Source of the DNA: Longimicrobium sp.
GTDB taxonomy: Bacteria > Gemmatimonadota > Gemmatimonadetes > Longimicrobiales > Longimicrobiaceae
Reading direction: 5' to 3'
Length of the DNA: 48,402 bases
Assembly (NCBI GenBank): GCA_036377595.1
Contig: DASUYB010000172.1
Span: 1-48,402 of the forward strand
The notes below the pieces were generated by a model that worked only from the letters and a program-made list of their open reading frames with translations, ran no database searches and was not told the DNA's origin. Positions 2,768 to 38,110 of the stretch are shown in pieces; the first letter of the stretch is position 1; each line of letters opens with the position of its first letter. Position numbers and translations under genes: made by a program.

Positions 2768-2815
2768 AGCCCGCGAAGGCGGACTGCGTGTTGTTGTAGC
2801 CGCGAGTTCACTCGC
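2768..2815 (-). repeat. Two-hairpin dispersed element, copy 1
   Basis: Reverse-strand copy of the composite element: a GCGAG-TGAA-CTCGC hairpin, a 16-nt spacer, then an AGTCCGC-CTTC-GCGGACT-type hairpin with one changed base. Other copies are at 3826, 5099, 11190, 11289, 24976 and 33670. Confidence 0.85.
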
Positions 2816-2828
2816 ATACTCCCACCAC

Positions 2829-3792: not shown

Positions 3793-3825
3793 GCGGCGAG
3801 TGAATCGCGATGTCGTGGGGACGAT

Positions 3826-3873
3826 GCGAGTGAACTCGCGGCTACGACGACACACAGTCCGCCTTCGCGGACT
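3826..3873 (+). repeat. Two-hairpin dispersed element, copy 2 (best consensus)
   Basis: Hairpin 1 is GCGAG-TGAA-CTCGC (3826-3839). A 16-nt spacer GGCTACGACGACACAC follows, then hairpin 2, AGTCCGC-CTTC-GCGGACT (3856-3873). Both stems are perfect. It lies between thiM and the next gene. Confidence 0.92.
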
Positions 3874-4467: not shown

Positions 4468-5106
4468 ATGGAGATCGAGATCGCGGAGGAGACGGCGGAC
4501 GCGCTCCGCGACTACGGGCGCGTCCCGATCGCGTTCGAGGTGCGGAGCGTGCTCGAGGTCTCCGCGCCGGACGGCGGGCTCGGCGGGCTGGTGATGGCCG
4601 AGCGCCCCGTCGACCCGCCGTACGTGAAGGACTACGACGCCATCGCGGGCGAGGGGCCGGCGCGCTGGGCGGCGCGGTTCGACGTGTCGCGCTGGGGATT
4701 CTTCGCCGCGCGCGCGGAGGGGCGGCGCGTGGGTGGCGCCGCGGTGGCGTTCGACACGCCGGGCGTGCACATGCTGGAGGAACGCCGCGACTTGGCCGTG
4801 CTGTGGGACCTGCGCGTGGCGCCGGAGATGCGCGGCCGCGGCGTCGGCGCGGCGCTCGTCCGTGCGGCGGAGGCGTGGGCGGTCGCGCGCGGGGCCCGGC
4901 GGATGAAGATCGAGACGCAGAACATCAACGTCGCCGCCTGCCGCTTCTACGCCGCGATGGGATACGACGTCGGCGCCATCCACCGTTTCGCCTACCCCGA
5001 CCTCCCCCACGAGACGCAGATCCTCTGGTACAAGGATCTCCCCGTCTCCCGATCGCAGATCGGGACCTGCGTGGAACTTGGCCGCCTGCCTTCCACCGGC
5101 GGCTGA
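4468..5106 (+). CDS. GNAT family N-acetyltransferase
   Basis: A 212-residue acetyltransferase of the GNAT superfamily, which transfers acetyl from acetyl-CoA to an amine. The acetyl-CoA pyrophosphate loop is seen in DLRVAPEMRGRGVGAALV (Q/RxxGxG/A type motif A). It is preceded by a strand with LAVLWDLRV and followed by motif B (KIETQNINVAACRFYAAMGYDVG), which is typical of RimI-like enzymes. The N-terminal 90 residues are longer than in minimal GNATs and may shape a specific substrate pocket. Substrate unknown. The ATG has a GGCGGGGG run upstream. The last codons and the stop lie inside the first hairpin of a two-hairpin repeat (5099-5149), so the C terminus may have been set by repeat insertion. 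Confidence 0.88.
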   Translation: MEIEIAEETADALRDYGRVPIAFEVRSVLEVSAPDGGLGGLVMAERPVDPPYVKDYDAIAGEGPARWAARFDVSRWGFFAARAEGRRVGGAAVAFDTPGVHMLEERRDLAVLWDLRVAPEMRGRGVGAALVRAAEAWAVARGARRMKIETQNINVAACRFYAAMGYDVGAIHRFAYPDLPHETQILWYKDLPVSRSQIGTCVELGRLPSTGG

Positions 5107-5149
5107 AGCCGCAGCAACAACTACGAAAAACCTCGCAAACTGCGCGAGG
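5099..5149 (+). repeat. Two-hairpin dispersed element, divergent copy 3
   Basis: Hairpin 1 is GCGGC-TGAA-GCCGC (5099-5112), the spacer is AGCAACAACTACGAAAAA, and hairpin 2 is CCTCGC-aaactgc-GCGAGG (5131-5149). Both stems differ in sequence from other copies but remain paired. The TGA of the acetyltransferase gene is the TGA of the TGAA loop. Confidence 0.75.
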
Positions 5150-5283
5150 CTGTCGGCGCCGGCCGCAACTCGACGGCGAGGCGAAGATCTCTCGAGGGCG
5201 CACTTGCCGTCTCGCACTCGAAGGGCGATTCTACGCGCGCACTCTCGGCAGTTGAATCGTTTACCTCACGATGGAGATGGTCG

Positions 5284-10893: not shown

Positions 10894-11189
10894 GTAGCTG
10901 TGTGCCGTGTGTGGCTCGCGATGCGTCAGGTTCGCCCGACGCCGCCGTGCACGCGCAACGCTCCGGCCCCGCCATGGGCGAGACGGGCGATACAGCGACA
11001 GGTGCAGCGGGCGGCGTTCGTCATTGCAATTCGATGGCGACGTGGCGCGAGACTCATGCTCACGTTCGCCGCGACCGGCCGCGGTGTCAAGGGAGATGGG
11101 GATCAGGTGGCGGGGGGATGGGCAATCGCGCGGGGATGGGAAGAGGGTGCGGGGGTAAGAGATGGACTCGCCGGGCGGGGCTGGGACGG

Positions 11190-11237
11190 GCGATTGAAAT
11201 CGCGGCAACAACGGCCCGAAGTCCGCCTTCGCGGACT
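11190..11237 (+). repeat. Two-hairpin dispersed element, copy 4
   Basis: Hairpin 1 is GCGAT-TGAA-ATCGC (11190-11203), the spacer is GGCAACAACGGCCCGA, and hairpin 2 is AGTCCGC-CTTC-GCGGACT (11220-11237). Compared with copy 2, the first stem has a compensatory pair change (G-C to T-A) at its apex. Confidence 0.92.
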
Positions 11238-11288
11238 CCCGGGGCGGCATTCGCCCGAAGGTGGAGAGATTGGCTCGGCCGCTAGGGT

Positions 11289-11339
11289 CCCCGGGTTGAA
11301 CCCGGGGCTGGAACGGCAGGAAGTCCGCCTTCGCGGACT
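11289..11339 (+). repeat. Two-hairpin dispersed element, copy 5
   Basis: Hairpin 1 is CCCCGGG-TTGAA-CCCGGGG, the spacer is CTGGAACGGCAGGA, and hairpin 2 is AGTCCGC-CTTC-GCGGACT (11322-11339). It lies only 51 nt after copy 4. Confidence 0.9.
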
Positions 11340-24883: not shown

Positions 24884-24975
24884 GACTACGCCTCCGCGAG
24901 GTGGGTCGGGGAGCGGGGTGACGATCGCAACCGGGCCCGCGAAAGGTCGGTGGCGACGATTGATACGCGAACAAT

Positions 24976-25023
24976 GCGACTGAACTCGCGGCTACAACTA
25001 CACACAGTCCGCCTTCGCGGACT
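24976..25023 (+). repeat. Two-hairpin dispersed element, copy 6
   Basis: GCGAC-TGAA-CTCGC (one mismatch in the stem), spacer GGCTACAACTACACAC, then AGTCCGC-CTTC-GCGGACT (25006-25023). Very close to copy 2 at 3826. Confidence 0.92.
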
Positions 25024-25118
25024 CCGCATCCGCGCAGGGGCAACATCCTCGCCAGCGGCATCCCCCCGGGGCGGGGCCGGCCGCGCGCACGCGGGCGGCC
25101 TTCGCACGCGAAGCAGCC

Positions 25119-25198
25119 GCGAGCGAAGCGAGCCCAGGTCCCTCCCCCAGGTTGGTTTTGGGGGAGGGACAGGCGCGAAGCGCCAGGGAGAGGGCCTC
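25119..25198. repeat. 80-bp hairpin repeat, left copy (inverted partner at 43165)
   Basis: Contains the hairpin TCCCTCCCCCA...TGGGGGAGGGA-like (CCCTCCCCC / GGGGGAGGG) and the small palindrome GGCGCGAAGCGCC. It matches the reverse complement of 43165-43243 at about nine of ten positions. The two copies bracket mraZ-ftsZ. Confidence 0.9.
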
Positions 25199-25340
25199 GC
25201 GAGGACGGCGGACGCGCCGCCTCTCCACCCCACCTTCCTCCCCACTTCTCCCCACCGCCATCTCCGTGAGATCGAAAACGCAGAGTTCACGCGGCCCCGC
25301 GCGCGCGTAGGACCGGTTTCCGCTTCGGCTTATCTTCGCC

Positions 25341-32412: not shown

Positions 32413-33546
32413 ATGCTCTACTACTTCCTGGTGCCGCTGGCCGAGCAGAACCTGGCCTTCAACGTCTTCCGCTACGTGACCTTCCGCGCGGCAGGCGCGG
32501 TGGTGACCGCGTTCCTGGTGGCGTTCTGGTTCGGCCCCGCCATCATCGCGCGGCTGCGGATGCTCAAGGTGGGCCAGGTCGTCCGCACCGAGGGCCCGCA
32601 GACGCACCTGGGGAAGAGCGGCACCCCCACGATGGGCGGCGTGCTGATCGTGATGGCCACGGTGATCCCCACGCTGCTGTGGGCGCGGCTCGACCAGTTC
32701 AACACCTGGGCGGTGCTCGTCACCATCATCTGGCTGGGGACGCTGGGGTTCCTCGACGACTACCTGAAGATCACGCGGAAGAAGACCGAGGGGCTGAAGG
32801 GGCGCTACAAGCTGGTGGGGCAGACCGCGGCGGGGCTGGTGCTGGGGCTGGCGCTGGTGTTCGTCCCCCAGTGGCTGCGCGGGATGGACACGGGGATCCC
32901 CACCTATCCGTTCGCGTGGACGCAGATCCCGTTCTTCAAGACGGTGCACATCTCGCTCTGGTGGCCGCTCTACATCCTGTTCGTGACGTTCATCATCGTG
33001 GGCTGCAGCAACGCGGTGAACCTCACCGACGGGCTCGACGGGCTGGCGGCGGGATTGTCGGCGATCGCGGCGACGACCTTCGGCGTGTTCGCGTACCTGC
33101 TGGGGCGGGTGGACGCGGCCAACTACCTGAACGTGTTCTACATCCCCGGCGCGGGCGAGCTGGCCATCTTCCTGGTGGCCCTGGGCGGGGGATGCATGGG
33201 CTTCCTCTGGTTCAACGCGCACCCGGCCGAGGTGTTCATGGGCGACACCGGGTCGCTGGCCATCGGGGGGGTGCTGGGATGCGTGGCGGTGCTGCTGCGC
33301 GCCGAGTTCCTGCTCGGCATCATCGGCGCGATCTTCGTGGCCGAAGCGCTCTCGGTGATGCTGCAGACGGCGTACTTCAAGTACACCAAGCGGAGATACG
33401 GCACGGGCCGGCGGATCTTCCGGATGGCGCCGCTGCATCACCACTTCGAGCAGATCGGGTGGCACGAGAGCAAGGTGATCATCCGCTTCTGGATCATGGG
33501 GATCATGTGCGCGCTGGTGGCGTTTGCGACGCTGAAGATCCGATAG
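32413..33546 (+). CDS. mraY: Phospho-N-acetylmuramoyl-pentapeptide transferase
   Basis: A 377-residue polytopic inner-membrane enzyme that transfers phospho-MurNAc-pentapeptide to undecaprenyl phosphate, forming lipid I. The motifs are GKSGTPTMGG (near residue 70), GFLDDYLKI (the first Asp pair), VGCSNAVNLTDGLDGLAAG, FMGDTGSL and PLHHHFEQIGW, all diagnostic. About ten transmembrane segments are visible. The ATG is 8 nt after the murF stop. A repeat island begins immediately after the stop codon and separates mraY from murD, so transcription may be interrupted or restarted there. Confidence 0.97.
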   Translation: MLYYFLVPLAEQNLAFNVFRYVTFRAAGAVVTAFLVAFWFGPAIIARLRMLKVGQVVRTEGPQTHLGKSGTPTMGGVLIVMATVIPTLLWARLDQFNTWAVLVTIIWLGTLGFLDDYLKITRKKTEGLKGRYKLVGQTAAGLVLGLALVFVPQWLRGMDTGIPTYPFAWTQIPFFKTVHISLWWPLYILFVTFIIVGCSNAVNLTDGLDGLAAGLSAIAATTFGVFAYLLGRVDAANYLNVFYIPGAGELAIFLVALGGGCMGFLWFNAHPAEVFMGDTGSLAIGGVLGCVAVLLRAEFLLGIIGAIFVAEALSVMLQTAYFKYTKRRYGTGRRIFRMAPLHHHFEQIGWHESKVIIRFWIMGIMCALVAFATLKIR

Positions 33547-33549
33547 GGA

Positions 33550-33582
33550 AGTGCCCAGTGCCCAGTGCTTAGTGCCCAGTAC
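33550..33582. repeat. AGTGCCC heptamer array
   Basis: AGTGCCC-AGTGCCC-AGTGCTT-AGTGCCC-AGT follows the mraY stop codon. Inverted counterparts (TGGCACTGGGCACTG) lie at 33895-33915 right before the murD start. Confidence 0.85.
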
Positions 33583-33669: not shown

Positions 33670-33721
33670 CCCGGGTTGAAACCCGGGGCTGGAACGGCAG
33701 TGAAGTCCGCCTTCGCGGACT
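33670..33721 (+). repeat. Two-hairpin dispersed element, copy 7
   Basis: CCCGGGT-TGAA-ACCCGGG(G), spacer CTGGAACGGCAGTGA, then AGTCCGC-CTTC-GCGGACT (33704-33721). It is most similar to copy 5 at 11289. Confidence 0.92.
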
Positions 33722-33743: not shown

Positions 33744-33794
33744 GCAGTTTCTCCCCTCCCCTGCGAAGCGGGGGAGGGGCTGGGGGAGGGGGCC
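33744..33794. repeat. C/G-rich hairpin repeat, left direct copy
   Basis: CCCCTCCCCTGCGAAGCGGGGGAGGGG with flanks GCAGTTT and GGGGGAGGGGGCC. An almost identical direct copy is at 37771-37820, so the two flank murD-ftsW-murG. Confidence 0.88.
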
Positions 33795-33917
33795 AGCCGG
33801 GCGGGCAGGATGCCTCTCTCAGCAGCACCGAGGCTGGGGTTGGGCTGAGTTCACTTAGGACTCAGGACTTGGGACTCAGGACTTTTTTCGGCCGGGCACC
33901 TGGCACTGGGCACTGCC

Positions 33918-37770: not shown

Positions 37771-37820
37771 CGCAGTTCTCCCCTCCCCTGCGCAGCGGGG
37801 GAGGGGCCGGGGGAGGGGGC
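37771..37820. repeat. C/G-rich hairpin repeat, right direct copy
   Basis: CCCCTCCCCTGCGCAGCGGGGGAGGGG with the same flanks as 33744-33794, differing by a few bases. Confidence 0.88.
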
Positions 37821-38110
37821 CGGCCGCGGCCGCGCAGATGAAGGTGGTCCGCGCCGAACTTGACCCCGCGCTGAGGTCTCCCCCTCCCCCAGGCGGTTTT
37901 GGGGGAGGGGGTCGGGGGGAGAGGGCTACCGCGCCGGGCGGGCACGATGCCTCTCCCGCGGCAGAAGCTGGCGAGTGATCATTCCGCGGCGATCGCCCCC
38001 GGTGGCGGGTGGTGGATGGGGATCGTCGGGAGCCGGGCCGCCGGGGGCCCGCCGCGGAGAAGCAGGGGAGAGGCAGGGAGCCGCGCACTGATGCACTCTC
38101 GCACTCACGC

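Follow-up and report, generated by a model that had tools for sequence, protein, structure and literature searches.

Results

The window, as we call the whole stretch of DNA analysed here, is a 48,402-nucleotide (nt) piece of the Longimicrobium sp. genome (contig C172 of a 7.20-Mb draft in 208 contigs) that carries seven copies of a unit of about 50 nt made up of two hairpins, whose relation to a small Y1 tyrosine transposase is the subject of this study. Genomes compared with it are those of Gemmatimonadota relatives unless another phylum is named. The reverse complement of the tetranucleotide at the foot of hairpin 1, referred to below as the tag, divides the copies into three subfamilies. 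The GTAG subfamily comprises copy 1 on the minus strand (2768..2817, 71.2 bits with the covariance model R1) together with copy 2 (3824..3873, 70.7 bits) and copy 6 (24974..25023, 72.3 bits) on the plus strand, where the remaining four copies also lie. Hairpin 1 reads GCGAG-TGAA-CTCGC in copies 1 and 2 and GCGAC-TGAA-CTCGC, with one C.C mismatch, in copy 6. In the GTTG subfamily it reads GCGGC-TGAA-GCCGC in copy 3 (5097..5150, 43.4 bits) and GCGAT-TGAA-ATCGC in copy 4 (11188..11237, 70.6 bits), while the CCAG subfamily has a longer stem, with 7-bp CCCCGGG/CCCGGGG around a TTGAA loop in copy 5 (11289..11339, 58.7 bits) and CCCGGGT-TGAA-ACCCGGG in copy 7 (33670..33721, 49.8 bits). Hairpin 2 is AGTCCGC-CTTC-GCGGACT in copies 2, 4, 5, 6 and 7, AGTCCGC-CTTC-GCGGGCT with one T.G in copy 1, and CCTCGC-AAACTGC-GCGAGG in copy 3.

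R1 was seeded from these seven copies and used for scoring; in its seed alignment, A4, some rows are shorter by at least one base to hold register, and the alignment serves copy finding only. All seven copies listed in an earlier note on this DNA were recovered at 43-72 bits (E 5e-11 to 3e-19), and the next match in the window scored 12.8 bits. Because R1 had been built from the window copies, chance was also assessed with a plain, model-free detector, which found 5 units in the window, whereas 100 Markov resamplings averaged 0.03 and never gave more than 1. The reversed GTAG that the earlier note had seen in copies 1, 2 and 6 is present in exactly those copies, the others carrying GTTG or CCAG. 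Its list of hairpin-1 stems holds in that pairing persists through sequence change, but copy 6 has GCGAC/CTCGC rather than GCGAG/CTCGC, and the exact hairpin 2 that it assigned to six copies occurs in five. All seven copies lie outside the blocks conserved with the nearest relative, G003, an arrangement with a chance probability of 4.6e-5 given 24% non-conserved sequence, and unit-free orthologous spacers measure 13-22 nt in three genomes compared with 389 nt in the window. Copy 6 lies between a diacylglycerol-kinase-type gene and mraZ, and copy 7 between mraY and a murD-like gene.

The two stems were examined for covariation in several sequence sets. A search of genus DNA for hairpin 2 alone (at most 2 mismatches), unlike the cross-phylum set described below, did not rely on a model that rewards pairing; it found 98 sites, 84 of which had all five hairpin-1 pairs in fixed register, and at the innermost pair G-C, C-G, A-T and T-A were each common. 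In a set of 36 verbatim distinct sequences 98.1% of cells were paired, two-sided changes occurred in 34 cells against 9.4 in shuffles, and the covariation score over both stems was matched by none of 500 shuffles. Since related sequences without structure can also exceed shuffles, a slid-partner control was needed, and displacing the partner by 1-3 columns in the same 36 sequences lowered pairing to 27-43%. Units from multiple phyla, a set picked with a pairing-rewarding model, showed two-sided change at 9 of 12 pairs (69 cells against 15.8 in shuffles), and RNAalifold recovered both of their helices unprompted. Sequence conservation among 43 copies ends sharply, reaching 3 nt beyond the 50 nt outward and about 2 nt inward, and the outer tails in the Longimicrobium genome read ATCGT, ATACT or ATTGT. 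These results support selection for structure, as the earlier note had proposed, and both stems covary.

A search of the Longimicrobium genome with PF01797 returned exactly two Y1 genes, L001 and L002, each with one unit directly upstream and an inverted unit directly downstream, forming an inward-facing pair. The ends of L001 are of the CCAG type and those of L002 of the GTAG type, each gene having its own subtype; window copies 5 and 7 share the type of the L001 ends, copies 1, 2 and 6 share that of the L002 ends, and the unusual hairpin 2 of copy 3 recurs on both sides of the G003 transposase gene L040. The inward pair was present at 25 of the 27 family Y1_Tnp loci examined, the exceptions being L049, an interrupted gene with one end, and L041, which belongs to a different branch; no such pair was seen at three Y1 genes that are more distant and do not belong to the family. 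Across 21 family genomes, element and gene occurred together in 13, the element alone in 2, the gene alone in none and neither in 6 (p = 5e-4). At one locus (L001:1315-1854, minus strand) the transposase frame enters its own downstream two-hairpin end, so that hairpin DNA would encode the C-terminus of the protein. Three family transposase genes (L042, L049 and G009:C2:506737-507069) are broken by an in-frame TAG, which fits decay after spread of the repeat.

Among 24 aligned proteins no variation occurs at D54, H55, H57, W95, Q96, Y115, Q119 and H123, and hardly any at H122; at position 56 most have V and three have A or T. The catalytic HxH, Y and Q are retained throughout. The motif Y---Q--HH in these proteins is that of class 1, the class-2 (TnpA_REP) motif being Y---NP. 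With the IS200 model L001 scored 67.3 bits (cut-off 55) and L002 54.4 bits, just below; with the REP_Tyr_transpos model (cut-off 80) L001 scored 20.5 bits and L002 had no match. The earlier note had likened the units to repetitive extragenic palindromic (REP) sequences mobilised by REP-associated tyrosine transposases (RAYTs), and association with a Y1 tyrosine transposase is borne out, but the enzyme is no canonical RAYT. Classical REP sequences moved by a canonical class-2 RAYT would account for the reversed GTAG at the 5' foot of hairpin 1 in three window copies, for the high copy number and for inverted doublets; they sit poorly with the only two Y1 genes of the genome being class-1-like by both model scores and the Y---Q--HH motif, and with two-hairpin units bearing several alternative tags, and we regard this explanation as highly improbable. 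In this draft genome the enzyme scores and motif reveal no canonical RAYT/TnpA_REP.

Ordinary IS200/IS605 insertion sequences (IS) provide a second comparison, in which IS copies, whether intact or decayed, would move whole and the units would be their ends. L001 exceeds the IS200 cut-off, and the nearest solved structures are IS200/IS605 transposases (IS608, ISDra2 and similar TnpA). Genes, however, are diverged, with 41-67% identity to the first sequence, and number only 0-6 per genome, as against hundreds of ends; identical gene copies might go unseen in draft assemblies. The ends are also inverted and doubled, unlike the small subterminal hairpins described for IS200. Whole-element IS movement is therefore a very unlikely source of the units.

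The units are dispersed genome-wide, as the earlier note had anticipated. At least 150 occur in the Longimicrobium genome, and an unbiased census of 400 kb (C105:1-240000 and C108:1-160000) found 20, which corresponds to about 360 per genome; neither unpaired stems as frequent as paired ones nor a chance-level number of copies was found. Both orientations are present, and doublets in this genome face inward in 13 cases and outward in none, with 46-257 nt between units, an arrangement that is like that of miniature inverted-repeat transposable elements (MITEs) and REPINs. In the cyanobacterium Planktothrix rubescens, two 167-nt doublets in unrelated places share 93% identity, which breaks off abruptly past ATCCA and TGGAT; one of them is missing from the orthologous site in two relatives (G058 and G063), where 21-27 nt stand in place of 258 nt, although not base-exactly. 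By sequence comparison, these doublets provide indirect evidence of movement.

When named genomes were scanned with the enzyme alignment, relatives of the enzyme, 43-57% identical, came from Cyanobacteria, Chloroflexota, Armatimonadota and Gemmatimonadota, and also from single metagenome-assembled genomes (MAGs) of other phyla. Omnitrophota, Poribacteria and Actinomycetota are each represented by one MAG, which is weak evidence because such bins may carry foreign contigs. Upstream of the related genes 69% of flanks carried a two-hairpin unit, and downstream 66% did; shuffled sequence gave about 1%, and control positions within these loci 1-4%. Where both ends were readable, their foot tetranucleotides were identical in 39 of 46 loci (13.8 expected), and over all phyla the tetranucleotide clusters on the enzyme tree (15 changes versus 30.5). 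GTAG is the tag of most cyanobacterial loci, with GTTG and CCAG found elsewhere, and 16 genomes with relatives contain dispersed units, from 9 to more than 150 each. Bacteroidota relatives whose C-terminal tail is longer had no match to the unit model at any of three loci, and two of the three have other inverted repeats. L255 and L256, on Persicobacter and Bernardetia plasmids, encode Y---Q--HH proteins with a YLWD/YLFE-type tail, and different inverted repeats with hairpins, unmatched by the model, flank both genes; the wider Y1 class may have further unrecognised ends.

Strong stem covariation and an intergenic location could also be understood if the structure acted as RNA, as a terminator, mRNA stabiliser or attenuator, with the transposase link being secondary, and RNA roles are known for REPs elsewhere (PMC3733652). 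An Rfam scan of the window matched no family, both orientations are present, the ends pair with the gene across phyla and share its distribution, and the boundaries are sharp and doublets occur, all of which leave a primary RNA function only the slightest probability. Action as mobile DNA accounts for the pairing with genes, for the inversion within doublets and for the spread over phyla, and a later RNA role for single copies may be compatible with it.

Several further repeats lie in the window. A separate dispersed repeat, about 80-100 nt long and containing the inverted repeat CCCTCCCCC/GGGGGAGGG, lies at 25090-25230 (core 25120-25196); the Longimicrobium genome has some 30 copies or more, 85-98% identical, and G001 has others. 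A C-rich/G-rich dispersed repeat, TTCTCCCCTCCCCTGCG..GGGGGAGGGG, occupies two window spacers (33749-33817 and 37776-37834) and many places in G003. The near-palindrome at 22178-22249 matches on both strands, recurs in G001 and G003, and sits in a block otherwise conserved with G003. Tandem repeats of 7 bases (AGTGCTG/AGTGCCC and the reverse) are found in several spacers, at 169-237, 2560-2646 and 33536-33580, with a similar array in the orthologous G003 spacer.

Discussion

The structural, genomic and phylogenetic observations presented here make it very probable that the two-hairpin units serve a small single-strand transposase system of the Y1 (HUH tyrosine) type as its terminal recognition sites, and that the dispersed copies are its non-autonomous progeny. 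From the outside inward, each unit comprises a short outer tail, hairpin 1, which has a TGAA-type loop, a foot that reads in reverse complement as the guide-like tetranucleotide GTAG, GTTG or CCAG, a spacer, and hairpin 2. Two inward, inverted units bracket the transposase gene, spanning 0.6-0.9 kb overall, and the same two ends without the gene, about 20-257 nt apart, form the MITE/REPIN-like doublets. A unit that stands singly is probably a solo end or the remnant of a decayed doublet. By analogy with the biochemistry of IS200/IS605 and TnpA_REP, a TnpA dimer would bind hairpin 1 as single-stranded DNA, the reversed foot tetranucleotide would help to select where in the outer tail cleavage takes place, and the tyrosine would cut and rejoin the strand, carrying doublets into intergenic DNA. 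Hairpin 2 might stabilise the folded end or restrain transposase expression, and because it ends 7-8 nt ahead of the matched first codon in several Nostoc loci, control of transposase translation is one conceivable role.

In IS608 and TnpA_REP a tetranucleotide 5' of the hairpin guides cleavage, and a guide-to-tail rule links GTAG with CT or CA cleavage (PMC8266576). By analogy, the reversed foot and the outer tail of our units likely correspond to guide and cleavage zone, respectively; when the published rule was set against the outer tails of the Longimicrobium genome, no single simple rule fitted.

Comparison with described systems places the element near several of them. With REP/REPIN systems and REPtrons, which employ class-2 RAYTs, it shares high-copy intergenic palindromic units, in part of the copies a GTAG-type tag at the hairpin foot, inverted doublets, and one cognate Y1 gene per repeat type that is flanked by its repeats, the genes being low-copy and diverse; here, in contrast, the enzyme is class-1/IS200-like, each unit has two hairpins where a classical REP has one, and the tag may also be GTTG or CCAG, canonical systems having GT[AG]G at the 5' foot. 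The system works like a REPtron with REPINs, yet is outside the canonical RAYT class by the enzyme test. IS200/IS605 elements such as IS608 and ISDra2 have the same catalytic domain and likewise end in hairpins whose 5' foot bears a candidate guide tetranucleotide, whereas the ends described here are inverted and doubled, their progeny are mostly gene-less and near-identical multicopy genes are absent. In TIRtrons a Y1 gene (TIRYT) also lies between inverted repeats, of which some are self-complementary and recur in the genome (PMC3733652), but those described are mostly of subclass 2.1 with a GGGGWSAS motif, unlike the class-1-like enzyme and covarying two-hairpin ends found here. The closest enzymes by motif are those of TnpA_Y1 subclass 1.2, which have DH[VI]H, WQ and Y---Q--HH motifs, a length of about 140-150 aa, low copy number and an occurrence in Cyanobacteria, and for which the survey of Quentin et al. 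2018 reported no REPs (PMC6006769). The enzyme bears this motif signature, suggesting a group at or next to subclass 1.2. It differs from the subclass as published in having cognate two-hairpin ends at most loci. The ...ENYLWD/EKYLFE-like tail of the Bacteroidota relatives is missing from our proteins, which would be a second difference if that tail corresponds to the published subclass-specific C-terminal domain. Core strings of the unit had no match in the literature searched, although a 2008 report on small mobile repeats in cyanobacteria, outside that search, could describe some of the cyanobacterial units.

A number of observations weigh against this interpretation. Genomes G004 and G010 contain elements with no gene found, both being incomplete. 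No base-exact empty site was found in G003, other genus members or Planktothrix, where neighbouring bases had also changed, and tag clustering on the enzyme tree was not significant within Gemmatimonadota (27/300). The evidence for mobility is computational and indirect, and part of the evidence for pairing comes from sets chosen by a model that rewards it. IS200/IS605 elements are cleaved strand-specifically at both ends and insert 3' of a set tetranucleotide. The IS608 reaction is of this strand-specific kind, and with inverted ends the chemistry here would be no simple copy of it.

A broader proposal is that these enzymes form a phylum-spanning Y1 branch with inverted two-hairpin ends unlike those of IS608, which would be responsible for previously uncredited repeats, MITE/REPIN-like and numbering tens to hundreds per genome across Gemmatimonadota, Cyanobacteria, Chloroflexota and Armatimonadota, through a reaction that therefore departs from the one-strand IS608 scheme; we see even chances that this holds. 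Enzymes that belong to TnpA_Y1 subclass 1.2 or stand close to it had no known substrate in the published survey; they now have a likely one that is gene-specific, present in tens to hundreds of copies per genome and distributed over at least four phyla, which makes them a testable REP-like system. The units account for part of the short intergenic repeats in these genomes, and their naturally varied guide tetranucleotides offer a handle on how Y1 enzymes pick cut sites, while raising the question of how a strand-specific type of enzyme copes with inverted ends.
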